From: Onthophagus taurus
Taxonomy: Eukaryota > Arthropoda > Insecta > Coleoptera > Scarabaeidae
Length of the DNA stretch: 64,000 nt
Assembly: GCF_036711975.1 (NCBI RefSeq)
Contig: NC_091972.1
Coordinates: forward strand, 19,287,001 to 19,351,000
Direction of reading: 5' to 3'
The position numbers were made by a program, and so were the translations under genes. Shown piece after piece: positions 12,953-61,830 of the stretch. Numbering within the stretch: position 1 is the stretch's first letter; every line of letters begins with the position of its first letter. Under the pieces are notes generated by a model that worked only from the letters and a program-made list of their open reading frames with translations, made no database searches and had not been told where the DNA came from.

Positions 12953-13810
12953 CAGGGGTGTTCGTAAAGGTTATTTCCTCAAAACTTTTTGATTATGTCA
13001 TAAACCCTTTAATTTTCCAACTGGTTCTCAAAGCCTATTTCATTTTAGTTTTCGAGTTATTCGCAAAAAGATACAACCTCAATTTTGAAGTATTTTCATT
13101 AATCGTAAGTACTTATGGAAACTAATTTTGAATAAAGCAGTAAGGCATCTGTCAAATTATTACCCAACATAGTAGTTTAAAATGACAAATAATTAGTTTT
13201 GACATGCTTTTAATGTTGGGAGTGTGCTTAGGCAGTGCTAACACAGCGGCGAGATGATATTGGAACAAATTTCCCAACCGCAGACAACCTGATAAAAAAA
13301 CATTTCTAAAAGTATGTAAATAACGGTAATCAGAAGTCAGTTTGTACACCCGAACTAGAAGAAAACATTTTGGATTTTCTGGCAGATCATAGTACTACTA
13401 GTGCTGTTGATAAATAACAAGACATTTCGGAATATCGAAAAGTACGGCTTGGTAAAGTACGAATAGCAACTGTATCCATACCACTTGTCTTGTACTTAAT
13501 AATACAAAAATTAAATATTTCTGATAATCCGTTCCAAGAACAGTATGGCAAAACTGTGCTGTGATGGAAAAATATTCGTAATTGAACTAAAGAAAATCCA
13601 GATTTTATGCTACGTTGGATAATAATTTAACACATTGCTTTACTAACGATTTGTTTTCATCGGCGCCTACGAGTATCTCAAAAACGAGGTTGTATCTATT
13701 TGTGAGTAACTCTAAAACGATTAAATGGGCTTTTAGAATCAGTTGGAAAATTTAATGGTTTACAACAAAATAAAAAAGTTTTAAGGAAATAACCTTTATG
13801 AACACCCCTG
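12953..13810. mobile_element. Non-autonomous mariner-like element, CAGGGGTGTTC ends
   Basis: The left end CAGGGGTGTTCGTAAAGGTTA and the right end, inverted (CAGGGGTGTTCATAAAGGTTA), form terminal inverted repeats with TA on both sides (12951-12952, 13811-13812). The flanks outside the TA are themselves inverted copies of each other (12880-12950 against 13813-13870), so the element sits at the centre of a larger palindrome or has longer ends than shown. Inside, the plus strand at 13347-13640 reads PELEENILDFLADHSTTSAV and then broken transposase-like text. Confidence 0.65.
13340..13640 (+). pseudogene. Mariner-like transposase fragment
   Basis: Plus-strand translation gives PELEENILDFLADHSTTSAV, then stop-interrupted text including QKLNISDNPFQEQYGKTVL and ENPDFMLRW. 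The order fits the N-terminal and linker part of insect mariner-like transposases. Stops and frameshifts show it is dead. Antisense copies of the same text occur near 18060-18290 and 19020-19170. Confidence 0.5.
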
Positions 13811-13812
13811 TA

Positions 13813-14715
13813 TAGCATTGATCCTGAGGTTGCATATTTTCAAAAATGATTCTAAACGATTTCTCATGATAACATTGCAGTATTAGCCAAATATTATTTT
13901 TTTAAGACAAACAATTTCGAAAATATTTAAATATTTTTTAACGTTTTAGACCTAGAACTAGAAACATTCGGGTTTAGCTATTTTAAGAGACGTTCAGAAT
14001 GTTTCTAGTTTTAGTGTTAATTCTAGTTTTAGTTCAATGAAAATATACAACAATTTAGATTTGAATAACTCGTTGTCCATCAATTCTTACACCTATGTTA
14101 TCTCTCCTTTCTCCCTTTGTGATGTTGTAGAATCCTATTTATTATGATTTCCTCCTCTTGTAGGCAAAATTCTATATTTGGATGATTCTTTGTAGGACAT
14201 CTACTTTGCTTGACATTAGTACAATATTGTCTCGCGTGCAAAACAGAGTTAGGTTGTGGTATCCTAACCTCGTCGAAGAACCCCTATAGGTGCCACTCTG
14301 GTCATATGATTACAAAAATTATCTTGATAATACAAAACATAGAATGTTGCATTTTATCTGATTAAGCCGAGGTCGTTTGCGGCCGAAGCTCTACAAATAT
14401 TACATATGATCCCAAAGATGATCAACACATTGTAGCGCTTCGGCCATAAGCAACTTCGGCTAAACTCGGAACAGAACAACGATTGATATGATATAGTCAC
14501 AAAAATAATTAAATACTGAAACGCCTCGGCTACAAGGGAGGTAAGCCTCTACAATTGATACAATATGATTTCAAAATGTGTTTTCTAAAACAACACAGAG
14601 CAAGCATTTTGCCTAATGAAAGCGATTAATATCATATAGTGACTAAAATGATCAACACTTGGATACATATCACTTTTTATATTAATTTATTTTAATTTAG
14701 TTTTAAAATGATTAA
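13813..14715. repeat. Left arm of a large inverted repeat
   Basis: This arm matches the reverse complement of about 16923-17830. Example: 14225-14350 reads the same as the complement of 17300-17440 with only a few substitutions. The arms also share the GCTTCGGCCATAAGCAAC block (about 14437 and, inverted, 17230). They enclose about 2.2 kb. The left arm carries a short insertion relative to the right near 14362-14390. Confidence 0.75.
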
Positions 14716-14939
14716 GATTTATTCCAAATGATCTTGACTGTGTAAAGATATGTAAATTCGCACTATTATTATGAATAACTCATTAGATTCCACCCTATAT
14801 AAAAAAAACGTTACATTCGAGGACTTTTTTTTTTAAAGAAAATTTATTAAAGATTCTGCAGATGTAAAATAATCCAAGCAGATTTATGAAAAGAAAAAGT
14901 GAAGAATACAAAAAATGAGTCCTTGGTAAGAAGAGAAGT

Positions 14940-15190
14940 ATATCATTTTAATAAGATGTTTATCTCCCGGGATACACTCTCCGCGGTTTTTTATAATATA
15001 ACGGGTGTCTGCGCGGTTAACAAAAGGGGCACGTGTCGGGCAGGTGTTTGCTGGGGCCCCCGAGTTGATGACCGAGCAGGTGTACGCTAAGCTTGAACGC
15101 CCAGACATATGCGGCGGTTGTAGATGTATTAACCGATGGTGTGGCGTGTCCACACATGCAACTCTCCACCAACCAACAGAAAACCCAACT
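14940..15190. promoter_or_regulatory. GC-rich island with E-boxes in intron 1
   Basis: About 250 bp with clearly higher GC than the neighbourhood, containing CACGTG (about 15031), two CAGGTG sites (about 15041 and 15079) and CpG-rich tracts. It lies between the inverted arms. Open frames across it on both strands are a by-product of its composition. It could be an enhancer, an alternative promoter or the interior of a mobile element; a cis-regulatory module is my preferred reading. Confidence 0.4.
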
Positions 15191-15249
15191 CTTTTTTACA
15201 CACAGATAAAAAAATTGTATCCCCCCGAGTTTATTTATTTGTAACAATC

Positions 15250-16429
15250 AGAAAAAAAATGATAAAATCATCTTATAGGATGAAATTGTTTCTACATCTG
15301 TTCTTCTTTTACTTGGATCTGTTGTGTTTCAATGAAAATAATAACAGTAATCATATGTTTTTGAAAAAAAAATCGTTCTGTTATTATTTTGTTGTTGTTT
15401 GGAAATAATTTTGTAAGAAAATCAGGTCCGCTCAGGAAAGCAGAGAGAAACACAATAAAAATATGTTCGCGTGACCGTTTCTTGGAGGCTAATGAAATCT
15501 TTTCTCTGAACGTTCCATCTTCACAGACCGGAACCAGGTATCTCGTTATTCCACCATAATCTAGCTTTGCTTTGTATTTTGTATGGGCAGAATTCCCCTT
15601 TAAAGGAAAAGAGGAGGAGAAGGCTTAAGATACAAAAGGAAATCCAAAAAAAGAATTAAATGGAAAAGATAACATATGAAGAAGAAAGAAGAAGAAGGAG
15701 AGACCGCTTTCTCAACTGATATAATTATACCTCAATAATTATGTGGGGCACCAACCGGATTAATCTCACTATTTGTTTTACTAGTTTGTTTTTATTAAAT
15801 TATAAAAAAAGTTTTCGGATAAAACTCGCAAAGTAAGGATTGCTAAATCTTTGCTTTTTAAATAGGAAAATACAGGAAGTTTAACAAATATTTGATTTCC
15901 TCTTATAAGTTTATTTAAAAAATACGTATCAATCTGTTATTTATTCTTTTTGAAACTATTTCCAATTTACTTCCTGAATAGATAGATGTCACGCTAAAAA
16001 ACAAATTTGTAAACTTCACGTTACTCATTGAGATGTATTTGAACAATAATTCTGGTTATTTTTTTTTTATTTTAAAAAATGATGAACTTTCCATTGGCCA
16101 CGTGCGTCATTAGAATTTTTTAAAAACGAACGGGAATATGAATTGTGCTGAAAACAAAAACAAGATTAATGTGGAAAAAAACTCTTCAAAATTCTATCCT
16201 ATTCTTTGTATGTGTGTGTATAATTAATTTGTAACAGAAAAAAAATTCCGGAATATTAAAAAAAATTTTCATAAATTAATTAACGAAAACGTCGATGAAT
16301 CAAAAAAGAATTAGGCTTGAAAAATTCGTTAACCCATTTAAGTGACAAAGTATGCGCCACTTTGTCATCATTAAATATTTTTTATTATACAGTGCGTCCG
16401 TAAAGTAGACGATAAAATCATTGTAAACA
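15250..16429. other. Intron 1 DNA, no gene seen
   Basis: AT-rich with poly(A)/poly(T) tracts. A less AT-rich patch at about 15420-15720 includes CCGGAACCAGGTATC and purine-rich runs, and CCACGTGCGTCAT occurs at about 16098. These are possible binding-site clusters only. Confidence 0.35.
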
Positions 16430-16922
16430 AATGGTTTTAAGACGCACGGCTAAACCCGAAACTTTTTAGTGTTAGTTCTATTTTTAGTTGTTATTCAGTA
16501 CTTCATTGAACTAATACTAGAACTTGAAACATTCTGAGCGTCTCTTAAAACAACTAAACCCGAATATTTCTAGTTCTAGGTCTAGTGCTAGTTCTAATGC
16601 TAGTGTTAGTTCTACTTTTAGTTGTTATCCAGCGTTTAGATTGTTGTACATTTTCATTGAACTAAAACTAGTACCAACGCAGACACCCGGCTAAACCCGA
16701 AATTTTTTAGTTCTAAGTCTAGTGTTACTTCTAGTTTTAATTAATTATAATTAGAACTAACACTACACCTCAAACTAGAAACATTCGAGTTTAGCCATCT
16801 TAACAGACACACGTCTAACCCGAATGTTTTTAGTTCCAAGGGTCAAATCTGGATTTTCTTTAGTTCAATTATGAATATTTTTCAAATTAATGGTAATCAG
16901 TAAAAAGATAAAAAATAAAATT
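16430..16922. repeat. CTAAACCCGAA / CTAGTTCTAG repeat cluster
   Basis: At least four modules of the 12430-12950 family lie here in both orientations, for example CGGCTAAACCCGAAA at about 16448 and 16691. They precede the right inverted arm in the same way that copies border the left arm. Confidence 0.6.
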
Positions 16923-17830
16923 AATTAATCATTTTTAAACTAAATTAAAATCAATTTTATATAGGATGGCAAATTCACTTTTTGTAGCATACAGCTGTTA
17001 ATATAAAAAGTGATATGTATCCAAGTGTTGATCATTTTAGTCACTATATGGTATCAATTGCTACGCTTTAATTAGGCAAAATACTTGCTCTGTGTAGTTT
17101 TAGAAAACACACTTTGAAATCATATTGTATCAATTGTAGAGGCTTACCTCCCTTGTAGTCGAGGCGTTTCAGTGTTTAATTATTTTTGTGACCATATGAT
17201 ATCAATCGTTGTTCTGTTCTGCGTTTAGCCAAGGTTGCTTATGGCCGAAGCGCTACAATATGTTGATCATCTTTGGGATCATATGTAATATTTCAGACAA
17301 AATGCAACATTCTATGTTTTGTATTACCAAGATAATTTTTGTAATCATATGACCAGAGTGGCACCTATAGAGATTCTTCGACGAGATTAGGATACCACAA
17401 CCTAACTCTGTTCTGCACGCGAGACAATATTGTACTAATGTCAAGCAAAATAGATGTCCTACAAAGAATCATCCAAATACAGAATTCTACCTACAAGAGG
17501 AAGAAATCATAATAAATAGGATTCTACAACATCGCAAAGTTAGAAGGAAGAGATAAAATAGGTGTAAGAATTGATGGACAACGAGTTATTCAAATCTAAA
17601 TTGTTGTATATTTTCATTGAACTAAAACTAGAAACATTCTGAACGTCTCTTAAAATAACTAAACCCGAATATTTCTAGTTCTAGGTCTAAAATGTTAAAA
17701 AATGTTTAAATATTTTCGATATTGTTTGTCTTAAAAAAATTATATTTGGCTTTAGGGCAATGTTATCATGAGAAATCGTTTAAGATCACTTTTGAAAATG
17801 TGCAACCACGAGATCAATACATACTGTATA
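16923..17830. repeat. Right arm of the large inverted repeat
   Basis: Inverted counterpart of 13813-14715. Landmarks in order are the inner TTAATC...AAACTAAATT (16923-16945), the cactttttatatt complement (about 16996-17044), the GGCCGAAGCGCTACAA block (about 17242) and the outer AACATTCTGAACGTCTC block (about 17630). The high similarity suggests a fairly recent duplication or two recent insertions of one family. Confidence 0.75.
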
Positions 17831-17869
17831 CATACATACTGTACATACTGTATACTCATATATACAGGG

Positions 17870-19840
17870 TGTTCACAACGGTTATTTCCTTAAAACTTTT
17901 TTTTTGTCGTAAACCATTAAATTTTCCAACTGATTCTAAAAGCCCATTTAATCGTTTTAGAGTTATTCACAAAAAGATACAACCTCGTTTTTGAGACACT
18001 CGTAGAAGTCCATGAAAAAAAATCGTTAGTAAAGCAATCTGTCAAATTATTATCCAACGTAGCATAAAATCTTCAATTATGAATTTTTCCATCATAGTAC
18101 AGTTTTGCCATACGTGTACTATTAAGTACAAGAAAAGTGGTATGGGTACAGTTGCTATTCGTACTTTTCCAAGCCGTACTTTTCGATATTCCGAAATGTC
18201 TTGTTATTTATCAACAGCACTAGTAGTACTACGATCTGCCACAAAATCCAAAATGTTTTCTTCTAGTTCGGGTGTACAAACTTCTGATTAAAGTTATATA
18301 CATACTTTTAGGTTTGGAATTTTTTTGCAATATCATGTCACCGCTGTGTTAGCACTCCATCCCAACGTTAAAAGCATGTCAATTTGCTCACTAAAACTAA
18401 TTATTTGTCATTTTAAACTATTCTTAGCGGCTAACGTATGTTGGATAATAATTTGGCAGATGCCTTATTGCTTTACTTACAATTTGTTTTCATAAGCACT
18501 TACGATTAATGAAAACATTTCAAAATTGAGGTTCTATCTTTCTGCGATCCTTAAATAGCATTGATCCTGAAGTTGCATATTTTTAAAAGTGATCTAAAAC
18601 AATTTTTCTTGATAGCATTGTACAGTTTGCCAAATTTTGTCGTTCTAAGACAATGCTTAACAATTTCTTAACTTTGAAGGCTCATATCTTAATCGTTTAC
18701 GGGTTTAGACCAAAAAGTTTTACACGAATCGTCATCATTGTGACTCTAGTATTTGTGATTAAAATTATGCCACGACTTACAGAAACACCCATTGCCACTC
18801 AGTTCGGACATAACAATTTTCCAAGCAGAATTTCTTGCTATAAACTTCTGCACCGCTTTGAACTAACAGAATGGACAGAAAGGTGTATCCATAAACATTT
18901 TTGAACGTTTTTGAGATACTCGTAGGTGCCCATGAAAACAAATCGTTAGTAATTGCTTTACTAGCTGTTAGATTATTATCCAACGTAGCGTAAAATCTGG
19001 ATTTTCTTTAGTTCATTTATGAATATTTTTCCATCATAGTACAGTTTTGCCACACTGTTCTCGGAACGGATGATCAGAAATTTTTAATTCTTATATTTAT
19101 CAACAGTACTAGTAGTACTACGATCTGCCACAAAATCCAAAATGTTTTCTTCTAGTTCGGGTGTACAAATTGATCTCTGATTACCGCTATTTACATACTT
19201 TTAGAAATGTTTTTTTATCAGGTTGTCTGCGGTTTGGAATTTTTTTGCAATATCATCTCGCCGCTGCTTTAGCACTGCCTAAACACACTTCTAACGTTAA
19301 AAGCGTGCCAGTTTACTCACTAAAACTAATTATTTGCCATTTTAAACTACTATTAGCGACTAACGTATGTTGGGTAATAATTTGGCAGATGCCTTATTGC
19401 TTTACTTACAATTTGATTTCATAAGCACTTACGATTAATGAAAACATTTCAAAATTGAGATTCTATCTTTCTGCGAACCTTAAATAGCATTGATTCCGAG
19501 GTTGCATATTTTTAAAAGTGATCTTAAACGATTTTTCATGATAGCATTGTACCGTTTGCCAAATTTTGTCTTTCTAAGACAATGCTTAACAATTTCTTAA
19601 CTTTGAAGGCACATATCTTACTCACTTACAGGTTTAGACCAAAAAGTTTTACACGAATCGTCATCATTGTGACTCTAGTATTTGTGATTAAAATTATGCC
19701 ACGACTTACAGAAACACCCATTGCCACTCAGTTCGGACATAACAATTTTCCAAGCAGAATTTCTTGCTATAAACTTCTGCACCGTTTTGAACTTACAGAA
19801 GGGACAGAAAGGTGCATCCATAAACATTTTCACAGACAGT
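17870..19840. repeat. Tandem direct duplication of mariner-derived sequence (offset about 0.93 kb)
   Basis: The stretch of about 18310-18905 recurs at 19230-19835. The open frame starting MLNNFLTLKAHIL appears at 18653 and again at 19582. The first CAGGGTGTTC end is at about 17872. On the minus strand around 18225-18285 and 19095-19170 the text PELEENILDF reappears, so these are antisense transposase relics. The plus-strand frames are therefore shadows, not genes. Confidence 0.65.
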
Positions 19841-33400: not shown

Positions 33401-33589
33401 GTTTTATTTATAACCAGCAATTTATATTTTATTTTAATTAGCCGTCAAGAAGTCAAAAATTTTGAAACTTTGTGACAGAATTAAAACGCTATCAAAATAC
33501 AATCAGCAAAGGCCTTTGGAATCAATTTTAGCAAAATATGCAATTTCCTATTTTCGCATAATCTAAGTGTCAAAAAAGATGCTAATTCA

Positions 33590-35105
33590 AAAATTCTTGG
33601 AAGCCGTGTTTATTGAAATTAAGAAATTAAACTTATTTTAAATTGAAGCTTAAATCTTTCTGTTTAAATTGATGTATAATAATCGTTGGGTTGAATTAGA
33701 AAAATATTGAGAAGAAAGATGTTGAAATAAAACTTACGTTTTCATGTAACCTAAAAGTGTCAAAAAAGATGCCAATTTAAAAGTTCCTGGAAGCCGTATT
33801 TATTGAAATTACGGAATGAAACTTATTTTAAATTAAAGCTCAAAGCTTTCTCTTTAAAATGATGTATAATAATTGTTGGGTTGGATTGGAAAAATATTGA
33901 GAAAAGAAATATTGAAACAAAACTTAAATTTTCGTATAACATAAAAGTGTTAATAAAGATGCTAATTTAAAAATTCCTGGAAGTCGTATTTATTGAAATT
34001 AAGGAATGAAACTTATTTTAAATTAAAGCTCAAAGCTTTCTCTTTAAAATGATGTATAATAATTGTTGGGTTGGGTTGGAAAAATATAGAGAAAAAAAAT
34101 TTTTAAATAAAACTTACATTTCCGTATAACCTAAGAGTGTCAAAAGAAATGTTAATTTAAAAATTCCTGGACGCCGTATTTATTGAAATTAAGGAATGAG
34201 ACTTATTTTAAATTAAAGCTTAAAGCTTTCTTTTTAAAATGATATATAATAATTGATGGGTTGGATTGGAAAAATATTAAGAAAAAAAATGTTGAAACAA
34301 CACTTACATTTTCGTATAACCTAAAAGTGTCAAAAAAGATGCTAATTTAAAAATTCCTGGAAGCCGTATTTATTGAAATTAAGGAATGAAACTTATTTTA
34401 AATTAAAGCTCAAAGCTTTCTCTTTAAAATGATGTCTAATAATTGTTGTGTTGGATTGGAAAAATGTTAAGAAAAAAAATGTTGAAATAAAACTTACATT
34501 TCCGTATAACCTAAGAGTGTCAAAAGAAATGTTAATTTAAAAATTCCTGGACGCCGTATTTATTGAAATTAAGGGCTGAGGCTTATTTTAAATTAAAGCT
34601 TAAAGCTTTCTTTTTAAAATGGTGTATAATAATTGATGGGTTTGATTAGAAAAATATTTTAAAAAAAAATGTTGAAATAAAACGTACATTTTTGTATAAC
34701 CTAAGACTGTCAAAAACGATGCTAATTTAAAAATTCCTGGAAGCCGTATTTATTGAAATTAAGGAATGAAACTTATTTTAAATTAAAGCTCAAAGCTTTC
34801 TCTTTAAAATGATGTATAATAATTGTTGGGTTGAATTGGAAAAATATACAGAAAAAAAATGTTGAAATAAACCTTACATTTTCGTATAACCTAAGAATGT
34901 CAAAAAAGATGCTGATTTAAAAATTCCTGGAAGCTGTATTTATTGAAATTAAGGAATGAAACTGATTTTATATTAAAGCTCAAAGCTTTCTCTTTAAAAT
35001 GATGTTTAATAATTGTTGGGTTAGATTGGAAAAATATAGAGAAAAAAAATGTTGAAACAAAACTTACATTTTCGTATAACCTAAAAGTGTCAAAAAAGTT
35101 TTGTT
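33590..35105 (+). repeat. Array of eight 190-bp repeats (forward arm)
   Basis: The landmark (A)AGCCGTATTTATTGAAATTA occurs at 33601, 33791, 33981, 34171, 34361, 34551, 34741 and 34931, exactly 190 bp apart. Copies at 34171 and 34551 share private variants (ACGCCG, TCCGTATAACCTAAGAGTGT), which suggests a 380-bp higher-order unit. No coding function is seen. Confidence 0.9.
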
Positions 35106-35107
35106 TA

Positions 35108-36106
35108 AATTTTTTTTTTTCAATTTTTTTCCAATCCAACCTAACAATTATTAAACATCATTTTAAAGAGAAAGCTTTGAGCTTTAATTTAAAATAAGTT
35201 TCATTCCTTAATTTCAATAAATACGGCTTCCAGGAATTTTTAAATTAGCATCTTTTTTGGCACTATTAGGTTATACGAAAATGTAAGTGTTGTTTCAACA
35301 TTTTCTTTCTTAATAATTTTCCATTCCAACCTATCAATTATTATACATCATTTTAAAAAGAATGCTTTAAACTATAATTTAAAATAAGTGTCATTCCTTA
35401 ATTTCAATAAATAGGACTTCCAGGAATTTTTAAATTAGCATCTTGTTTGACACTTTTAGGTTATACGAAAATGTAAGTTTTATTTAAATATTTTTTTTCT
35501 CAACATTTTTCCAATCTAACCCAACAATTATTATACATCATTTTAAAGAGAAAGCTTTAAGCTTTAATTTAGAACAAGTCTCATTCCTTAATTTCAATAA
35601 ATACGGCTTCCAGGAATTTTTAAATTAGCATCTTTTTTGACACTTTTAGGTTATACGAAAATGTAAGTTTTATTTAAATATTTTTTTCTCAATATTTTTC
35701 CAATCTAACCCAACAATTATTATACATCATTTTAAAGAGAAAGCTTTGAGCTTTAATTTAGAACAAGTCTCATTCCTTAATTTCAATAAATACGGCTTCC
35801 AGGAATTTTTAAAATAGCATCTTTTTTGACACTTTTAGGTTATACGAAAATGTAAGTTTTATTTAAATATTTTTTTTTCTCAATATTTTTCCAATCTAAC
35901 CCAACAATTATTATACATCATTTTAAAGAGAAAGCTTTGAGCTTTAATTTAGAACAAGTCTCATTCCTTAATTTCAATAAATACGGCTTCTAGGAATTTT
36001 TAAATTATCATCTTTTTTGACACTTTTATACGGTTATACGAAACTGTAGGTTTTGTTTCAAAATTTTTTTTCTGAATATTTTTCCAATCCAACCCAACAA
36101 TTATTA
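35108..36106 (-). repeat. Array of 190-bp repeats (inverted arm)
   Basis: The complement of the same unit is repeated with the GGCTTCCAGGAATTTTTAAAT landmark at about 35225, 35415, 35605, 35794 and 35985. A sixth copy is cut by the transposon at 36109 and resumes at 40002. The two arms could form a hairpin more than 1 kb long. Confidence 0.88.
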
Positions 36107-37482
36107 TACAGTATGTCCCCGGACCGAGTTACAAAGAGGAAAAAAATTTTTGTTACTGATTTTTCAAACTTATCTCAGCATAAATAATGCGTCGGATATG
36201 TTCAAACTACTAGATCGCACGAATTTTATACTCTAACTATAAAAGTTAACTAATTATTCCAATGTTTATGTAACAATTGGACTTTTGTCTAAATTGAGAA
36301 TTGAAATTGAAGTTCAATTTATGATATGTAACCATAGAAACCATAAAACTTACAACTTATGTTGGTGAGATTAAGTCTTTTCATGCGATGTTAAATGCGA
36401 TGAAAGAGAGAATTTATTTAGTACTGTACTATGGTACTAGTGAATCATGTTTTCGTGTAGTTATACAAAAATTCTAGCAAAAATATCCGGACACAAGAAT
36501 ATCTCATGTGGAGCTCGCAAACTGATGACAAAATAATTGGAAACGGGTTTGTATTATCCATAAAGAGGCAGATAAAGAGACTAAATGAGGAAGACGCTGC
36601 CTTTCAGATAGCTTTTCAACAAATGACATTGTTTCTTCCCAGCATTGTCGTTATTGGAGCGATGTAAATCCAATTAGCTTTAAATTTTATACGGTCAATG
36701 TACAGGGTGTCCCAATTTCGATGTCCACATAGGCTATCTCCGAAACTAAAAGAGATAGAAAAAAAGTAGCTTACATGTCATGATCTCGTTTTTCGAGAAA
36801 ATGCTAATGCCGAAAACTCCGAACAGCTATCGTCTTTTGTTTTCGCCCTATCGGCAAAAACTGAAAATTTTGCGAAAACGACAATCGCGAATATCTCACT
36901 TATTATCAAAGATGGAGTATTATAAATAAAACATTATATGGGCAACTTTTTACGAAGAATTCAGTGGCGTAGGTAGAATTTTTTTCCCATCTTTTATTTT
37001 CGAGATTTGAGACATAACTTTATTTTTTTAAATGGAAACCATAGTTGGCTATGACCTAAAATAATTTGTTATTTTCTTCTGATAACAAATATATATAGTT
37101 TGTGGGGCATATTTCTTATAGTTATTGAATAATTAACAAAAATTCATTTTGTTCTATCTAAACATAATGTATGTATTTAAAAGTTAATGTTGCTATGGTG
37201 ATAACCATACATACTATGATGGAACATAATGTATCAAATAATTGCCAAAGTTTGTATTTAAAAATTCGATAACAACTCTGGCATTATGAGCTGGTATGAT
37301 GCACCGGCATGTTAGGTGTCAAAGTATAACAAAACTAAATAAAACTTAATGTTGCTATGGTGATAACCATACATACTATGATGGAACATAATGTATCAAT
37401 TTTTTTTGTTCTTTCTAAAACTATTTATGTATTTAAAACTTAATGTTGTTATGGTGATAACAATGCCACGATGGAAAACATT

Positions 37483-37902
37483 GGGTACGTTCAGCAGGTG
37501 TCAACAGTTGAATTAAATCAGTCAGCTAGTTGTATGAGCTTTAATACAGCGGAACGAAATCGGCTGAACAAGCAAATGAGAATTAGCAGTTCAGCATAAC
37601 CTAAAACTATGGCCAACAATAATATTTTTGAAAATTTTGTGTTATTACAAGAGATAATGGATGATGATGTTGATTTTAAGGCTCATTTCATTTTATACAG
37701 TTCTGCCAGTTTTCAAAATTAAAGGGGAGACACAAAAAATATTAATCCTAACCTAGAATTTCACAACCGCTGACAAACTAAGCGCAGATTACTTACGCTG
37801 AGATATTTACTAAACTGCTGCGTAACAGCGCTGACTTAGCATATCGTTCAGCCGCGACTGCTAATATAGCAACTTAACAGTTGACACCGGCTGAACGTGC
37901 CC
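37483..37902. mobile_element. 420-bp MITE with GGGYACGTTCAGC ends
   Basis: The left end GGGTACGTTCAGCAGGTGTC and the right end, inverted (GGGCACGTTCAGCCGGTGTC), form terminal inverted repeats with ATT on both sides. A 3-bp target site suggests a PIF/Harbinger-type element, though this is tentative. It interrupts the antisense transposase right after FGNNW and is the innermost of four nested insertions. Confidence 0.65.
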
Positions 37903-37904
37903 AT

Positions 37905-38604
37905 TGTTTCCAATTATTGCCAAAGTTTGTAGTAGTATTTAAAAATTCACTGACAACTCTGGCATTATGTGCTGGTGCTCCGCCATATTGAAAATATATC
38001 ATTTGAGACTTATTTAATGACAAATTGTCGACCAAAGGCACAATGTGCTGCCTTGATATATTGAGGTATTACCTGAGTTTAAATTTTTATGGTAGATACT
38101 ATATGCCAACATTCTATTATCTAAAAGGGCACATCATACATTGAACCTCAACCTTCTTTGAACACTCAGAGACTTCATTGGTCCAGATGACATTTTGAAC
38201 AAACAGCAGATTATTTAATTTTTCTAAATATCATCTACAAAATTCTAATCTTAGATTGACATCTCCTGCACGTAAATAATGAGTTAGGCCCGCTTTGTAT
38301 GGTTTATACATATTTTTCTTTCATATTCGGAAGCAGCGGTTTTTGGGTCAGACGTCTTGTTCAATTTCTCTGCAAGATGTTGATGGATTTATCGCAAGTG
38401 AAGCCACCACATTGACTTCATCCTCTTGCAGGCTATTTTGGTATGTTTTTGCACGTGGTTTGGGGTGGACCAAAAATCTATTAAATTTTCTGCTAACCGG
38501 CTGAAGGTTCTTACGTGCGGTTGTCTTCTTTCTGAATACCTTGTGAAATATAATTCCGCGGCTAACGTCGCATTCTTATCTGATAACATATAGCATTCCA
38601 TCAT
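37905..38604 (-). pseudogene. Decayed transposase with DUF4817-like N-terminus
   Basis: The minus strand 38604-38389 reads MMECYMLSDKNATLAAELYF and then RYSERRQPHVRTFSRLAENL, the DUF4817-type helix-turn-helix of insect mariner-like transposases. Near 37920-38000 it reads YFQYGGAPAHNARVVSEFLN, where the usual FQQDGAPAH has lost its catalytic aspartate (D to G). Stops and frameshifts lie between. It is dead. Confidence 0.7.
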
Positions 38605-39299
38605 GTTACATTTTCATAATTTTCGAAGTTCATTGTAAAGTTTTATTTAGTTTTGTTATACTTTGACACCTAACATGCCGGTGCATCATACCAGCTCATA
38701 ATGCCAGAGTTGTTATCGAATTTTTAAATACAAACTTTGGCAATTATTTGATACATTATGTTCCATCATAGTATGTATGGTTATCACCATAGCAACATTA
38801 ACTTTTAAATACATACATTATGTTTAGATAGAACAAAATGAATTTTTGTTAATTATTCAATAACTATAAGAAATATGCCCCACAAACTATATATATTTGT
38901 TATCAGAAGAAAATAACAAATTATTTTAGGTCATAGCCAACTATGGTTTCCATTTAAAAAAATAAAGTTACGTCAAAAATCTCGAAAATAAAAAATGGGA
39001 AAAAAATTCTACCTACGCCACTGAATTCTTCGTAAAAAGTTGCCCATATAATGTTTTATTTATAATACTCCATCTTTGATAATAAGTGAGATATTCGCGA
39101 TTGTCGTTTTCGCATAATTTTCAGTTTTTGCCGATAGGACGAAAACAAAAGACGATAGCTGTTCGGAGTTTTCGGCATTAGCATTTTCTCGAAAAACGAA
39201 ATCATGACATGTAAGCTACTTTTTTTCTATCTCTTTTAGTTTCGGAGATAGCCTATGCGGACATCGAAATTGGGACACCCTGTACTTTCAGTAAGACAG

Positions 39300-39611
39300 T
39301 TGCCCAGCTTACCATTTACACATTATGCCAAATGGTTAAATTTACAATTTCGTCAAAAATGGATTGAACGAAATGGTCTTATTTGATGGCCAGCACGTAG
39401 TCCTGATCTTACAATTATGGATTTTTATTTTTGGGGACGATTCAAACAAATTGTTTACAGTGAACCATTACAAGATGATGCAGAACTATTAAAACTAAGA
39501 ATAATTAATGCGATAGAATCTCTACCACTGGCGGAAATTCGTACTTCTTATAAAGAATTTAGAACTCGTCTTCAAATGTGTGCCGAATTGGGAGGGAATT
39601 TGTTTGAATGA
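39300..39611 (+). pseudogene. Mariner-type transposase C-terminus
   Basis: The frame ending at 39611 reads SPDLTIMDFYFWGRFKQIVY and continues to MCAELGGNLFE. This is the SPDLTPxDFxLWGxxK signature, with the last catalytic aspartate, of insect IS630/Tc1/mariner transposases. The upstream half of the gene lies before 36703, so the open frame from 39417 is only a fragment. Confidence 0.75.
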
Positions 39612-40433
39612 GGATTTGTTCACTTACAAATAAATAATATTTATTACTTACATAGTGTGTTATTACATAAGTTTACATTTAAAATATTTTATTCAATTAG
39701 CCATATTTTAATTTGATTTGTCCGTATATTTTTCACTGGCATAAGTTGTAACTTATATTTTATTTTATTGGTTTCTATGGTTACATATCATAAATTGAAC
39801 TTGAAAAATTTTTAATTTAGGAAAAGTATAATTTTTACATAAAAATGGGAATAATTAGTTAACTTCTATAGTTAGAATATAAAGTTCGTGCGATTTAGTG
39901 GTTTGAACATATCCGACGCATTATTTATGCTGAGATAAGTTTGAAAAATCAATAATACATTTTTTTTTCCTCTTTGTAACTCGATCCGGGGACATACTGT
40001 ATATCGATTTAAACAGAAAGCTTTAAGCTTCAATTTAAAATAAGTTTAATTTCAATAAACACAGCTTCCAGGAATTTTTAAATTAACATCTTTTTTGACA
40101 CTTTTAGGTTATGCGAAAATGTTAGTTTTTGCTCAATATTTTTTTTGTTCTCAATATTCTATCAGATTTTCGTCGTTCTGTAGCTACAGGTCTGATAAAT
40201 AAATATTCAAATTTACTGCGTCCACGAAAATGTAGCGCAAGTTCAAAAGAAAAAGGAAGTGCAATGCTTGTGGTACTCTCAAGTACCATTATCCCCTGGA
40301 ATGGGGAGATTGCATATTTTGCTAAAATTGATTTCAAAGGCCTTTGAGAAAGGCCACTGAGTGTGTTTTGAAACCGTTTTAATTTTGTCACAGAGATTCA
40401 AAATTTTTGACTTCTTGAGACACAAAGGGTTAA

Positions 40434-52227: not shown

Positions 52228-52231
52228 TTAA

Positions 52232-52385
52232 CCCTTTGTCTACCAGCGGTACTTAAAAGTGTTGCAAAATATACATACGTTCAGCTAATCAAAGCTAACG
52301 TGATTATTAGAATTTAAGTGGGACTTAAAAGTACCGCTGGATGATAAATGACGTTTTATAAAATTTAATTCTGGTACGGAAGGGG
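52232..52385. mobile_element. 154-bp piggyBac-like MITE
   Basis: TTAA flanks both sides (52228-52231 and 52386-52389). The inverted ends are CCCTTTGTCTACCAG and, inverted, CCCCTTCCGTACCAG. An internal inverted pair (CCAGCGGTACTTAAAAG and complement, about 52241 and 52325) adds a hairpin. TTAA plus CCCTTTG is the piggyBac pattern. Confidence 0.8.
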
Positions 52386-52494
52386 TTAAATATTAATATT
52401 TAAAGACAATGGTAGAATCAACGGTAAAAAATCGGTAGGTTTAAACACAAAGTGACAAAATGTTGTTTGGTAAAAGTTTATAAATGAATTTATA

Positions 52495-54180: not shown

Positions 54181-54404
54181 TCCATATACAGTGTCCCATA
54201 TCTTCCGCATCAGAACATTATACGGTCCGTGCGGTTATTATAACCATTTCGAAAAATTTTTATTAAAAAAATCGCTTCAGAATAATATATTCTGTATATA
54301 CGTTATGAGTTACACAAGGGACGTTGTATTTTTAAAAAACCTTGTTGAATGTTTGATTAAAATTATTGTTTTTCGGGATCGAACCTATTGGCAAGTTGTT
54401 AATC
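54181..54404. other. Junction between transposon and satellite
   Basis: Non-repetitive AT-rich sequence beginning CAGTGTCCCATATCTTCCGC (about 54189), which could be the end of another element. No gene is seen. Confidence 0.3.
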
Positions 54405-57400
54405 TTTGGAATCGGAGGATGTTACGAAAAACTTTTAAAATAAAAGTTGTAGCAAATTTTATTCTTAACAATATTGCTCTCTTGCACTTTTGCTCTTAGA
54501 TACGTCAATATCGAGATATATACAAAAATATGAAAATCTTATGAATTTGCTGCTCTTTAAAGTTATTCTTATATACTTATACACTTGAGAATCGGAGCTT
54601 GCTATAAGAAAACTTTTATAACAAAAATTGTTGCAAATTTTATTGTTAACAATATTGCTCTCTTGCGCTCTTGCTCTTAGATATGTCAATATCGAGATAG
54701 ATCCGAAAATAAAAAAAAATTATGAATTTGTTGCTCTTTCAAGATATTAAAGGAAACACTTGGGAATCGGAGCATGCTATAGGAAATCTTTTATAAGAAA
54801 AATTGTAGCAAATTTTATTGTTAACAATATTGCTCTCTTACACTTTTGCTCTTAGATATGTCAATATCGAGATAGATCCGAAAATATGAAATTTTAAGAA
54901 TTTGTTGCTCTTTCAAGGTATTAAAGGTAACACTTGAGAATCGGAGCTTGCTATAAGAAGACTTATAACAAAAATTGTTGCAAATTTTATTGTAAACAAT
55001 AAATCTCTTGCACTTTTGCTGTTACATACGTCAACATCCAGATAGATACGAAAATATGAAATTTTAAGAATTTGTTGCTCTTTCAAGTTATTAAAGGTAA
55101 CACTTGAGAATCGGAGCTTACTATACGAAAACTTTTAAAACAAAAATTATTGCAAATTTTATTGTTAACAATATTGCTCTCTTGCATTTCTGCTCTTAGA
55201 TACGTCAATATCGAGATAGATACGAAAATATGAAAATTTTATGAATTTGTTGCTCTTTCAAGTTATTAAAGGTAACACTTGAGAATCGGTGCTTGCTATA
55301 AGGAAACTTTTATAACAGAAATTGTTGCATATTTAATTGTTAACAATATTGCTCTGTTGCACTTTTGCTTTTCGATACGTCAATATCGAGGTAGATACGA
55401 AAATATGAAAATTGTATGAATTTGTTGCTCTTTCAAGTTATTAAAAGTAACACTTCGGAATCGGAGCAAGCTATAAGAAAACTTTTATAATAAAAACTGT
55501 TGCCAATTTTATTGTTAACAATATTACTCTCTTGCACTTTTGCTCTTAAATACGTCAATATCGAGATAGATACGAAAATAAGAAAATTTTATGAATTTGT
55601 TGGTCTTTCAAGTTATTAAAGGAAACACTTGGGAATCGGAGCATGCTATAGGAAATCTTTTATAACAAAAATTGTTGCAAATTTTTTTATTAACAATATT
55701 GCTCTCTTGCACTTTTGCTCTTAGATACGTCAATATCGAGATATATACGAAAATATGAAAATCTTATGAATTTGTTGCTCTTTAAAGTTATTAAAGGTAA
55801 CACTTGAGAATCGGAGCTTGCTATAAGAAAACTTTTATAACAAAAATAGTTGCAAATTTTATTGTTAACAATATTGCTCTCTTGCACTTTTGCTCTTAGA
55901 TACGTCAATATCGAGATATATACGAAAATATGAAAATCTTATGAATTTGTTGCTTATGAAGTTATTAAAGGTAACACTTGAGAATCGGAGCTTGCTATAA
56001 GAAAACTTTTATAACAGAAATTGTTGCAAATTTTATTGTTAACAATATTGCTCTCTTGCACTTTTGCTCTTAGATACGTCAATATCGAGATAGATACGAA
56101 AAAAAAAATTTGATGAATTTGTTGCTCTTTCAAGATATTAAAGGTAACACTTGGGAATCGGAGGATGCTATAAGAAAACTTGTGTAACAAAAATTGTTGC
56201 CAATTTTATTGTTAACAATATTGCTCTCTTGCACTCTTGCTCTTATATATGTCAATATCGAGATAGATACGAAAATAAAAAAAAATTATGAATTTGTTGC
56301 TCTTTCAAGATATTAAAGGTAACACTTGGGAATCGGAGGATACTATACGAAAACTTTTGTAATAAAAATTGTTGCCAATTTTATTGTTAACAATATTGCT
56401 CTCTTGCAGTTTTGCTCTTAGATATGTCAATATCGAGATAGATACGAAAATATGAAAAATTTATGATTTTGTTGCTCTTTCAAGTTATTAAAGGTAACAC
56501 TTTGGAAACGGAGCATGCTCTTGGAAATCTTTTATAACAAAAATTGTTGCAAATTTTTTTATTAACAATATTGCTCTCTTGCACTTTTGCTCTTAGATAC
56601 GTCAATATCGAGATAGATACGAAAATATGAAAATGTTATGAATTTGTTGCTCTTTCAAGTTAATTAAGGTAACACTTGGGAATCGCAGCATGCTATAACA
56701 AACCTTTTATAACAAAAATTGTTGCCAATTTTATTGTTAACAATATTGCTCTCTTACACTTTTGCTCCTAGATACGTCAATATCGAGATAGATACGAAAA
56801 TATGAGAATTCTGTGAATTTGTTGCTCTTTCAAGTTATTAAAAGTAACACTTGGGAATCGGTGCATGCTATAAGAAAACTTTTATAACAAAAACTATTGC
56901 AAATTTTCTTGTTAACAATATTGCTCTCTTGCACTTTGGTCTTAGATACGTCAATATCGAGATAGATACGAAAATATGAATATTTTATGAATTTGTTGTT
57001 CTTTCAAGTTATTAAAGGTAACATTTGAGAATCGGAGCTTGTTATAAGAAAACTTTTATAACAAAAACTGTTGCAAATTTTATTGCTAACAATATTGCTC
57101 TCTTGCACTTTTGCTCTTAAATACGTCAATATCGAGAAAAATACGATAATATGAAAATTTTATGAATTTGTTGCTCTTTCAAGTTATTAAAGGAAACACT
57201 TGGGAATCGGAGCATGCTATAGGAAATCTTTTATAAGAAAAATTGTTGCAAATTTTATTGTTAACAATATTGTTCTCTTGCACTTTTGCTCTTAGATATG
57301 TGAATATCGAGATAGATACGAAAATATGAAAAGTTTATGAATTTGTTGCTCTTTCAAGTTATTAAAGGTATAGAGTATATTTATTTGTAACTCTATATTT

Positions 57401-58565
57401 ATTAATCGTACAATAAAATATTAAAAATTAAAATGGAGTATTTGATAGACTGTTTTATATGTGTGTCTACCAGTTTATTTATTATTTTATGACTATAACA
57501 AAATCGCCATGGGAAAATACATTATGTTGATATAACAACCCATGGTGATATAACATGATGTTTCTATATAAAAATAATAAGAGTGCGTGATGCGCTACAA
57601 AAGGTAACACCTGAGAATCGGAGCTTGCTATAAGAAAATTTTTCAAGCAGAAATTGTTGCAAATTTTATTGATAACAATATTGCTCTCTTGCACTCTTGC
57701 TCTTAGGTACGTCAATATCGAGATAGATACGAAAATATGAAAATTTTATGAATTTGTTGCTCTTTCAAGTTAATTATGGTAACACTTGGGAATCGCAGCA
57801 TGCTATAACAAACCTTTTATAACAAAAATTGTTGCAAATTTTATTGTTAACAATATTGCTCTCTTGCACTTTTGCTCTGAGATATGTCAATATCGAGAAA
57901 AATACGAAAATATGAAAATTTGATGAATTTGTTACCCTTTCAAGTTATTAAAGGTAACACTTGGGAATCGGAGCATGCTATAGGAAATCTTTTATAACAA
58001 AAATTGTTGCAAATTTTATTGTTAACAATATTGCTCTGTTGCACTTTTGCTCTTAGATACGTCAATATCAAGATAGATACGAAAATATGAACAATTTATG
58101 AATTTGTTGCTCTTTCAAGTTATTAAAGGAACACTTGGGAATCGGAGCTTGCTATAAGAAAACTATTACAAGAAAAATTGTTGAAAATTTTATTGTTAAC
58201 AATATTGGTCTCTTGCACTTTTGCTCTTAGATACGGCAATATCGAGATAGATACGAATATATGAAAATTGTATGAATTTGTTGCTCTTTCAAGTTATTAA
58301 AGGTAACACATGGGAATCGGAACTTGCTATAAAAAAACTTTAGTTGCTCTCTTGCACTTTTGTTATTAGATGCGTCAATATCGTGATAGATAAGAAAATA
58401 TGAAAATTTGATGAATCTGTAGCTTTTTTAAGTTATTCAAGTTAATACTCGGGAATCACAGCGTGTTACGAAAAGACTTTTACAATAAAAATTGTAGCAA
58501 ATTTTTATGTCAACAATATTGCTCTCTTGCACTTTTTCTCTTAGATCTCTTAGATACGTCAATAT
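54405..58565. repeat. 174-bp satellite array, about 22 copies
   Basis: The unit contains GAGAATCGGAGCTTGCTATAAG, TTGTTAACAATATTGCTCTC and GATACGTCAATATCGAGATA in fixed order. GCTAT landmarks fall at about 54601, 54776, 54950, 55120 and 55295, a spacing of 170-175. Copies differ by scattered substitutions and small indels. The last copies (58280-58565) are more decayed. A 229-bp insertion breaks the array at 57371. Minus-strand frames such as those at 55690 and 57482 repeat because the satellite repeats. Confidence 0.93.
57371..57599. mobile_element. 229-bp insertion in the satellite
   Basis: Foreign sequence between two copies of AAAGGTA (57364-57370 and 57600-57606), where intact units read ATTAAAGGTAACAC. 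The 7-bp duplication indicates a transposition event. The ends show no convincing inverted repeat. The interior has an imperfect palindrome around CCATGGG...CCCATGG (57510-57545). Confidence 0.6.
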
Positions 58566-59290
58566 CCCATAAGTTAGGTGTTCCCATAAGATCCAATTTT
58601 TGTCACAATGGTATTGATTTTAAGTACGATGTGTTTTATAAAGTATTATAAAAATTCAAATTTTCAAATTTTGAAAATCGGTAGATTAAGTCGTATATCG
58701 GTATATTATCTTCTATATCGATAGCGTTGGCAACGCTGGGCCTTTTTGTGATTTTAGCGCCATCTATGATTTAAGTAAAATATATTTTTTTTAATTATTC
58801 ATTTTTATTATTTTTTGTGTCTTATCTTAAAAACTAGATAAGATTTCAATACATTTTATCACAAATCATTCGATTTGATTCATTAATTACATCCTATTTA
58901 TTTTATAAACATGTAAGCTTTTTTATGATTTTAGCCCCATCTAACATGGCGGGTTTTAACTAATAATATAATTTAAAAAATTTAATTTTTAATGTTTTTT
59001 CTATCTTATCTTAAAAACTAGATAAGATTGCTATAGATTGTATCAAAAATCATTCGAATTAATTCATTAATTACATCCTATTTATTTTATAAACATGTAA
59101 GCTTTTTTATGATTTTAGCTCCATTTAACATGGCGGGTTTGAACTAAAAATAAAATTTTAAAAATTATTAATTTTTAATGTTTTTTTCTATCTTATCTTA
59201 AAAACTAGATAAGAATTCAATAGACTGTATCAAACATCATTCGTATTGATTCATTAGTTACATCCTGTAGTATTTTTATTAATAAATAAG
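58566..59290. repeat. Three 185-bp repeats upstream of the thyroglobulin-domain gene
   Basis: CTTATCTTAAAAACTAGATAAG recurs at about 58821, 59005 and 59192 (spacing 184 and 187). Each copy also has GCTTTTTTATGATTTTAGC-like text and two have ACATGGCGGGTTT. The last copy ends about 40 bp before the start codon, so it overlaps the expected promoter. Confidence 0.85.
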
Positions 59291-59308
59291 AAAGAATTTG
59301 TTGCAATA

Positions 59309-59935
59309 ATGTGGAAAATATTAATATTTAACGTTTTATTTTGTGCGGTAAATTGTGATTTGGATTGTAAATATCAAGTACACACCGATTTCGGCCCTGA
59401 AGATTGTGATAGTGAAGCTGGTAATTATTATAATCCAACAATGTATGATGGTTGTATACCAGGGTGTGAAAAACGAATGAGTAAGTTTTAACACATGATT
59501 ATAAAAATGCTTTAACTGTTTAAATAGAAATAACAGATCTTTCTGGACTTTATAAATGTTCTTCATTACATCTTTGTCCTCCTGGTTATGAATGCAAGGA
59601 AGAAAAGTGCGTACTTGATGAGGGTAAGAAAAAAATAATAAGGTATAAAGAAAACCTAAGAAAAATTCTTGCTTTTAGACTCTTGTTTTAAGTATGTCTA
59701 TAAAACAGGAGACTATGAGAATGCTAGATTTCAACCAAAATGTTTAGTAGATGGAACATGGGCACCTAAACAATGTAAAGGAGATAGATGTTTTTGTTAC
59801 GGACCTAAAGGAAATCGGATTTTTGGGGATGCATTTCTTAATCAAGCTTCAAATATGACTTGCGGTAAATTAAATGAAGCTCTCTTCTTCATGAATCTAA
59901 TCATCCCTCCTAACCATCTCTCGTCCTTCTTTTAG
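59309..59935 (+). CDS. Small secreted protein with one thyroglobulin type-1 domain
   Basis: Exons 59309-59480, 59528-59623 and 59679-59935 join in frame to 174 residues. Residues 1-16 are a signal peptide (MWKILIFNVLFCAVNC). A Cys-rich middle (8 Cys, PPGYECKEEKC) precedes a thyroglobulin type-1 domain at about 92-151 with six cysteines (92, 111, 122, 127, 129, 151). It also has the PKCLVDGTWAPKQC pattern, but CFCY replaces the usual CWCV. Such domains often inhibit cysteine or other proteases or sit in matrix proteins; the role here is unknown. The tail after Cys151 (GKLNEALFF...) may be read-through, because TGCG|GTAAAT at 59865 is a possible splice donor; a further exon could then lie downstream. 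Confidence 0.75.
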
Positions 59936-60059
59936 TCCTCTTCATGATGATCTTGCAAAGAATATTAAAATTTGTGAATATTTATAAAGATTAATCACTT
60001 ACATTAGTATAATATTACTTGCATCTGTTTTAATTATAAACGGTTATTTAGAGTCTGAA

Positions 60060-61830
60060 TAAGCGAGAACAGGATCATTGCAAAAAGTAATCTATATTTC
60101 TCGAAACATTTTTTATAATTGTGGTCTCTATAATTGGTATAGTCTTTTGAAAGAAATTTTGTTAAAGGTTTCGTAATTTGAGCGAAATTTTGTCTAAATC
60201 TTATGTAATATCCGACAAGTTCTAAAAATGCTTTTCTTGGTATACGGAATTGTCGATTATTTAAAAAATTTGTTTCTCAAGAACTAAAAGTGCCTTTTTG
60301 CATTAAAAAGAGGATACTATAATTAATAATTGGTGATATTTCCACAAGGATCCTTCAAGAAATTATTTTATAGCGAATTTTGAAAGTTATCGATCAAAAT
60401 TTTGCAACATCCAAAATTTTATCAAAACTTCAAATATTGTTTTCTTAAAAACTAAACGTTATTTTTCAAAACGGGTTGGTTCATTGGAAAGAGGACACTT
60501 TTATTAACACTTTGGCTAATTTTCATACTCATATTCCAATAAATGGATTTTATACGAATTTTTAAAACTTAATCTGCGAAAATTGCAAAATTCGAAAAAA
60601 TTGTCAATTATTTCAAAAATTTTTTTCTCAAGAACTGAAAGTGATTTTTCAAAACGGCTTTTTGCATTAAAAAGAGGATACTATAATTAATAATTGGTGA
60701 TATTTTCACAAGGATCCTTCAAGAAATTAATTTTATAGCGAATTTTGAAAGTTATCGATGAAAATTGCAACATCGAAAGTTTTATCAAAACTTCAAATAT
60801 TGTTTTCTCGAAAACTAAAAGTTATTTTTCAAAACGTGTTGGTTCATTGGAAACAGGACACTTTTATTAACATTTTGGGAAATTTTCATACCAATATTCG
60901 AAGAAATGGATTTTATACGAATTATTAAAATTTAATTCGAAAAATTGTCGTTCATTTCAAAAATTTATTTCTCACGAACTGAAAGTGATTTTTCAAAACG
61001 GCTTTTTGCATTAAAAAGAGGATACTATAATTAATAATTGGTGATATTTTCACAAGGATCCTTCAAGAAATTAATTTTATAGCGAATTTTGAAAGTTATC
61101 GATGAAAATTGCAACATCGAAAGTTTTATCAAAACTTCAAATATTGTTTTCTTAAAAACTAAAAGTTATTTTTCAAAACGTGTTAATTCATTGCAAAGAG
61201 GACACTTTTATTAACATTTTGGGAAATTTTCATACCAATATTCCAAGAAATGGATGTTATACGAATTATTAAAATTTAATCGGCGAAAATTGCAAAATTC
61301 GAAAAAATTGTAGATTATTACAAAAATTTATTTCTCAAGAACTAAAAGTGATTTTTCAAAACGGCTTGTTGCATTAAAAAGAGGATACTATAATTAATAA
61401 TTGGTGATATTTCCACAAGGATCCTTCAAGAAGTTAATTTTATAGCGAATTTTGAAAGTTATCGATGAAAATTGCAACATCGAAAGTTTTATCAAAACTT
61501 CAAATATTGTTTTCTTAAAAACTAAAAGTTATTTTTCAAAACGTGTTAGTTCATTGGAAAGAGGACACTTTTATTAACATTTTGGGAAATTTTCATACCA
61601 ATATTCCAAGAAATGGATTTTATACGAATTATTAAAATTGAATCGGCGAAAATTGCAAAATTCGAAAAAATTGTCGTTCATTTCAAAAATTTATTTCTCA
61701 CGAACTGAAAGTGATTTTTGAAAACGGCTTTTTGCATTAAAAAGAGGATACTATAATTAATAATTGGTGATATTTCCACAAGAAAATCGAAAACATTATT
61801 AAACATCGAAAATTTTATTAAAACTTCAAA
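60060..61830. repeat. 363-bp tandem array, about 4.5 copies
   Basis: TGGTGATATTTYCACAAGG occurs at 60331, 60695, 61039, 61402 and 61765 (spacing 364, 344, 363, 363). Each unit includes two related halves: TTATTTCTCAAGAACTGAAAGTG and TTGTTTTCTTAAAAACTAAAAGTT with CAAAACG. So the unit may itself derive from a roughly 180-bp dimer. The inner copies are very similar. Confidence 0.9.

Follow-up and report, generated by a model that had tools for sequence, protein, structure and literature searches.

The locus at positions 33434-40433 of a 64,000-nucleotide window (the whole stretch of DNA analysed here) of the Onthophagus taurus genome is very probably made up of two copies of a single non-autonomous family within the piggyBac superfamily, joined head to head. 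The window lies on contig NC_091972.1 (C7 below), and the locus corresponds to C7:19320434-19327433. An earlier note, made from the letters of the window, had described it as a foldback transposon in which facing arms of a 190-bp satellite lie inside terminal inverted repeats (TIRs) with TTAA at both ends, and had proposed that it may represent a little-known element class. In the present study, the genome (290.8 Mb, 33 contigs) was searched. The locus is a new example of a known phenomenon, not a new element class.

Members of the family share one plan, namely, TTAA, the sequence CCCTTTGTGTCCC, a left domain, a direct array of 190-bp units, a right domain, and TTAA. In the window, two left halves are joined: arm 1 belongs to subtype A and arm 2 to subtype B. 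Unit identity between the two arms is 0.905. Among 27 groups of units, arm 2 ranks 14th for arm 1, while arm 1 ranks 21st for arm 2, which was judged from four full units. Because the units of one arm resemble those of the other no more than they resemble units elsewhere in the family, the arms seem not to be halves of a single inverted duplication. These comparisons were based on 232 full units from the window and 26 other loci, and units with fewer than 176 aligned query positions were dropped. The stretch covered was 10 kb at 20 of the 26 loci, 4 kb at three, and 1.35 kb at three; a single insertion is represented twice, by L014 and L015. As far as they were fetched, all 26 of these loci, each with at least three full units, carried them on one strand only. 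Furthermore, the 80-nt junction between the arms was found whole in the window only (best 40 of 45 candidates scored).

Anatomy of the locus

The features of the locus are listed below by window position.

33434-33437, no strand: TTAA read earlier as the left boundary; spacing 9 nt against 13 nt, chance 0.16
33446-33564, plus strand: left domain of the short subtype A (element 1), 13-bp terminal repeat missing; 33446-33572 corresponds to family left-end positions 17-145 (92%)
33565-35098, plus strand: forward array, eight full 190-bp units and 14 nt
35096-35098, no strand: head-to-head junction with a 3-nt (AAG) microhomology; arm 1 unit position 14 joins inverted arm 2 position 171
35099-36106, minus strand: first part of the inverted array of element 2, approximately 5.3 units
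36109-39999, no strand: TA-flanked, mariner-like insertion with inverted ends (CAGTATGTCCCCGG...), which splits a 190-bp unit
36703-39282, no strand: long-palindrome element with ends CAGGGTGTCCCAATTTC, inserted at a TA within the mariner-like insertion
40002-40149, minus strand: remainder of the split unit plus an incomplete unit, both in the inverted array
40150-40433, minus strand: left domain of the long subtype B (element 2), which terminates in the TIR CCCTTTGTGTCTC and TTAA (40430-40433)
40159-40278, plus strand: C-terminal scrap of the partner transposase (DFRRSVATGLINKYSNLLRPRKC...); protein match, 60% identity, E 1.6e-8

The facing units reported in the earlier note were seen again, eight forward and approximately six inverted. 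The forward arm consists of eight complete units at a spacing of exactly 190 nt (33565-35084), followed by 14 nt, and the inverted units at 35096-36110 are spaced 189-191 nt apart. The inverted arm resumes past the nested insertion at 40002-40149, with approximately 0.75 unit at 40008-40149, and this part is included in the count of approximately six. The arms are 85-94% complementary over 158-593 nt, far above chance.

The right end (40417-40433) is as the earlier note described it; its minus strand reads TTAA-CCCTTTGTGTCTC, the TTAA being at 40430-40433. However, the left end did not bear out the same description. It lacks the terminal 13 bp of the family: the alignment to the family left end begins at position 17 (window 33446), and the family end pattern was sought at the left end of the locus and not found. 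The TTAA at 33434-33437 sits 9 nt from AAGAAGTC, which in the family follows the terminal repeat at a spacing of 13 nt. TTAA begins at 1.4% of window positions, so that the chance of one within 12 positions is 0.16. This TTAA is probably a chance occurrence and not the true left boundary. The left terminus of the locus has been lost.

A separate insertion flanked by TA (36109-39999) makes up approximately 3.9 kb of the 7 kb and itself contains another one; neither was mentioned in the earlier note. The inverted ends of the outer insertion are 182 nt long and 91% complementary, with TA at 36107-36108 and 40000-40001. A transposase-like remnant at approximately 39390-39600 reads WPARSPDLTIMDFYFWG. 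A Pfam search of this remnant gave no match, and we take its motif to be of the mariner type. The insertion is called mariner-like because of its TA sites, its inverted ends, and this motif. The inner, long-palindrome element has inverted repeats of approximately 650 bp that are 99% complementary. Past the nested elements, which have ordinary TA sites, the sequence of the 190-bp unit picks up again. The mariner-like element would have entered the right arm after the fusion, and the long-palindrome element would then have entered the mariner-like element.

The piggyBac family and its 190-bp arrays

The left 467 nt, used as a query against the genome, produced 1117 candidates; the best 40 were scored, with 70 matches listed. 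Besides the window, 39 places were matched, and 20 of them were fetched at 10 kb; four places that carry the other left-end subtype were fetched at 4 kb. The left domain measures approximately 130 nt in subtype A and 300-330 nt in subtype B; the right domain extends up to 300 nt and ends in GGTACTTTAAAGTACCGTC, GGGACACAAAGGG, and TTAA. The TIR is the 13-bp CCCTTTGTGTCCC at both ends and starts with CCC (CCCT). Among the best 40 scored matches, the family is present on ten contigs. The left end of subtype B occurs elsewhere in at least 10 places that match at least 270 nt of the 315-nt query (best 40 of 514 candidates), and the examples L029, L030, and L032 carry arrays.

The TTAA-TIR string TTAACCCTTTGTGTCCC occurs exactly 516 times in the genome (246 forward and 270 reverse), while the reversed control gave no occurrence. 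The positions are known for the first 100 of these ends. On contig C1, 44 of the 78 listed ends make 22 convergent pairs, 1084-2812 bp apart, and 34 are unpaired; neighbours within 10 kb were divergent in two cases and on the same strand in none. Both ends were recognized by pattern in 17 of the 24 fetched loci, at distances of 1195-5472 bp. The TTAA of these copies is intact on the left in 15 (the exceptions are CTAA in L013 and ACAA in L025) and on the right in all 17, counts that are mildly biased because the end pattern itself included TTAA, with mismatches allowed. No right end was seen by pattern in L014, L015, L016, or L027; L029 and L031 showed one end within the 4 kb fetched, and L032 has a right end by pattern and a left end by BLAST only. 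As a separate observation, 48 of the 78 exact ends on C1 (44 Mb) are in its first and last tenths, and the ends are thus dense toward the ends of the contig.

Empty target sites were obtained through L013, L014, and L015, which occupy the same point of another dispersed repeat. Joining the flanks of L013 into one query produced 41 matches (best 40 of 363 candidates). Of these, 24 cross the joint, 16 end there (including two that are L013 itself), and one is a fragment elsewhere in the flank. The 12 joint-crossing sites that cover nearly the whole query were fetched, and all 12 were empty, with TTAA in nine and a one-base variant in three. The earlier note had proposed empty sites with a single TTAA as a check, and these paralogous sites provide them. 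One of the joint-stopping matches (C1:42554536) lies 1.5 kb from an exact family end (C1:42553052), and, therefore, more copies of that host repeat seem to be occupied. The copy number of the family may come partly from hitchhiking inside another repeat.

The genome is rich in piggyBac transposases: 116 of 3102 candidates for PF13843 were scored, and all 116 were above the cut-off. TTAA ends were sought at 10 of these loci and were clear (12-14 of 14 matching) in L034, L035, L039, and L042, weaker (9-11 of 14) in L037, L038, and L040, and not convincing at three loci. These strongest piggyBac genes were rejected as the partner of the family, as none of the 10 loci ends in CCCTTTGTGTCCC. The same search (L033-L042) revealed piggyBac families with long open frames, diverse TIRs, and groups of up to eight with identical scores, which suggests that other piggyBac families in this genome were recently active.

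Candidates for the partner came from family ends with an unusual next base, which occur in 3 + 12 places. The five stretches fetched cover six of these 15: three are ordinary arrays, L055 has no array within 1.4 kb, and L056 holds transposase pieces between two family right ends in the same orientation. In a Pfam search of four L056 pieces and one window piece, one L056 piece gave an E of 0.013, which is below the cut-off, and the others gave no match; the short window scrap at 40159-40278 had none. A search with an 81-aa transposase piece yielded 150 matches (150 of 381 candidates scored), including the window itself at C7:19327159-19327278.

One coding relative, L061, begins at its 5' end with the family right domain (81% over 275 nt), contains three open pieces, two of which match PF13843 (E 3e-26 and 6e-21), and ends at the 3' side with the family left domain (87% over 126 nt) and then TTAA. 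One of its pieces matches the piggyBat transposase 9c0f (E 6e-12) and the chain 'Transposase' of 6x67 (E 2e-5) in phmmer; we take 6x67 to be piggyBac of Trichoplusia. L060 has a 204-aa piece (PF13843, E 4e-12) and, 3' of it, the family left domain, which is truncated where the fetched stretch ends. L060 and L061 carry the family left domain 3' of the transposase; hence, the 3' end of a piggyBac gene is the counterpart of the left end of the family, and part of the tail of this gene is still present in subtype B. The family as a whole is a non-autonomous piggyBac derivative without a transposase.

In the available part of PMC2872659, piggyBac TIRs are described as 12-19 bp with a CC[C/T]T motif. 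The 13-bp CCCTTTGTGTCCC agrees with this description; however, the motif is not exclusive, and coding piggyBac copies in this genome also end in, for example, CACGTT. The family further shows the TTAA duplication, a single TTAA at empty sites, and a coding copy, the decayed L061, in which the terminal domains of the family enclose DDE_Tnp_1_7. The assignment to the piggyBac group in the earlier note thus holds for the family, while the window copy alone, with its left 13 bp missing, has no two-ended TIR.

Arrays contain from 3 to 26 full units. Unit identity is 0.936 within arrays versus 0.918 between arrays, and the array of L020 repeats in threes (0.956 at lag 3 versus 0.907 at lag 1). First (edge) units have an identity of 0.910 to the first units of other elements versus 0.865 to inner units (22 groups), and the best cross-element match of an edge unit was another edge unit in 19 of 22 cases, where approximately 15% is expected. 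Inner units are more alike. The edge test covered 22 of the 28 unit groups, omitted L015, L032, L057-L059, and the inverted arm of the window, and counted both L013 and L014, which are not independent. Because edge units are conserved by position across elements, the founder element probably already contained the array, which would have moved along with it while its interior turned over, as expected of unequal exchange. This edge effect, a distinct edge unit and a more uniform interior, allows the turnover of an array after transposition to be followed. A hairpin within the unit was also considered and rejected; folding one unit as DNA gave no better result than folding shuffled sequences (z -0.63).

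The earlier note had suggested that transposons may seed satellites in this way, which is no more than a possibility here. Arrays of variable length move with the element, but the one long array suspected, on contig C5, proved to be discontinuous. A search with the unit gave at least 176 matches among the best 40 of 587 candidates, and some of these cluster at C5:200475-210373. C5:201500-202300 consists wholly of units, while C5:204300-205100 contains units only from base 731, with no left domain before them. C5 thus holds an array that lacks a proper left end. A 10-kb satellite at this position was rejected, as the two 0.8-kb samples do not form one continuous array, and no long free array was shown among the best 40 of the 587 candidates.

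Origin of the head-to-head junction

The 190-bp array sits where most of the transposase gene had been. We propose that the transposase of the partner moved these deletion derivatives by cut and paste, with the array as cargo, and that unequal exchange altered its length. Two nearby copies in opposite orientations would then have been fused by loss of all the DNA between one point in the first array and one in the second. This loss may have occurred by end joining or palindrome revision. We judge such a local deletion to be the most likely origin of the fusion, with an inversion breakpoint next.

The fusion may alternatively be one breakpoint of a chromosomal inversion between distant copies in the same orientation, with breaks within both arrays. 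A left-left join of two subtypes, unrelated arm units, and a 3-nt joining are exactly one of the products of such an inversion, and the family is dispersed over ten contigs. If so, the flanks would come from two distant sites, a reciprocal right-right fusion would exist elsewhere, and the family would both spread a satellite unit and break chromosomes. We regard an inversion as a possible but doubtful origin, given that a local deletion requires no distant breaks. In addition, the pattern for the reciprocal tail-to-tail junction, AAATTARCATN{0,20}ACATTTYCGTATAACC, had no match in the fetched loci, which are few. Its anchors occur in 168 and 149 of the 232 units, and approximately half of tail-to-tail junctions would match it exactly.

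An assembly error, in which the assembler linked two arrays that lie apart in the genome, is improbable. Tandem arrays are prone to misassembly, and the junction was seen once; however, a head-to-head join through only three shared bases is unlike a collapse of like-oriented units. The ordinary TA sites of the nested elements and the unit that resumes beyond them also speak against an error, although they bear on the right arm only.

The proposal of a distinct class of mobile foldback elements with long TIRs of satellite units fared worse still, and we consider it very improbable. The facing arms do lie between two left domains, and the right TIR and TTAA are present. Nevertheless, the left TIR is missing, the arms come from different elements and are not the nearest relatives of each other, the junction is whole in the window only (best 40 of 45 candidates scored), and, as far as fetched, the arrays of all 26 other loci are one-stranded. 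On these grounds, the foldback class was rejected. One rearrangement can mimic a foldback transposon, and caution is needed when an element is classified from a single copy. Least credible of all is that the family belongs to Kolobok or another TTAA-using superfamily: Kolobok elements likewise use TTAA, but the coding relatives found here match PF13843 and a solved piggyBat transposase, and the TIR starts with CCCT.

Several points weigh against a composite of two copies of a piggyBac derivative as set out above. The putative deletion step is drawn from a single locus. The loci were mostly picked by similarity to the left end of the window or its relatives, and a foldback subclass could have been missed; in the six of 26 loci seen over 1.35 or 4 kb, an inverted arm may lie beyond. 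The proposed mobilisation by a coding partner is read from fossils. The piggyBac partner anticipated in the earlier note was found as a coding relative, but L061 is decayed, with its 5' terminus lost and three mismatches in the terminal 17 at its 3' end, and no intact partner was seen: the longest open frame among matches of at least 70% identity is 204 aa (150 of 381 candidates scored). Moreover, an origin of the array from the transposase gene was rejected because the unit had no significant match to coding copies (best E 0.06, L056).

Other repeats in the window and known systems

Further repeats were noted in the window. A 162-bp, TTAA-bounded stretch at 52228-52389 resembles a piggyBac-type miniature inverted-repeat transposable element (MITE) with ends CCCTTTGTCTACCAG and CCCCTTCCGTACCAG, and holds a GCGGTACTT motif resembling the right end of the family. 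A large imperfect palindrome occupies 13060-19480, with arms at approximately 13.1-14.7 kb and 17.0-19.5 kb that are 88-96% complementary in pieces. Tandem arrays at 54404-58480 and 58796-61822 have units of 175, 184, and 180/363 bp, periods that differ from that of the 190-bp family.

In the part of the literature available, in which subscription journals are thinly covered, we found no non-autonomous family of the piggyBac type described as having long internal arrays. In the same partial coverage, the TIR string occurred only in work that, judged by title and the start of the abstract, does not concern transposons. The comparisons below are based on the available portions of the cited papers.

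The nearest relative in kind found in these portions is Pokey, a piggyBac-superfamily element of Daphnia with two to five internal repeats of approximately 200 bp taken from the rDNA spacer (PMC3849761). Both have TTAA, short TIRs, a variable number of internal repeats of approximately 200 bp, and deletion-derived MITEs alongside. However, Pokey keeps its transposase and its MITEs are without repeats (PMC3849761), whereas 3-26 repeats are carried here by the non-autonomous form. The coral piggyBac-type MITEs (CMITEs) similarly have TTAA, TIRs of 13-14 bp, and internal sequence of unknown origin, and one of their families is linked to a coding piggyBac element (PMC2872659). In contrast, CMITEs are approximately 100 bp long, and their tandem arrays consist of CMITEs themselves and not of an internal unit (PMC2872659).

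Among other transposons related to satellites, the foldback element Tetris of Drosophila virilis is also a non-autonomous DNA transposon with internal tandem repeats (approximately 220 bp), and changes in their copy number were attributed to unequal exchange (PMC4079207). The repeats of Tetris are in both TIRs and gave rise to kb-size satellite arrays (PMC4079207), whereas the array described here is single and direct and its facing form was seen once. The TCAST transposon-like elements of Tribolium are another insect case of satellite-related sequence in a dispersed TIR element; however, they hold approximately one monomer in long TIRs, have an ACT target duplication, and include one relative with a mariner-type transposase domain (PMC3411249). 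Lastly, MITE-borne satellites, such as miDNA4 of Xenopus, resemble the present family in that a MITE holds and spreads a satellite unit (PMC9659126). The examples in that review belong to other superfamilies (including Tc1/mariner, Pearl, and Helitron), with no piggyBac case in the available part of its Table 1 (PMC9659126). With its 516 exact ends, the present family adds a piggyBac-type case to the DNA transposons in which a satellite unit is carried along and spread.

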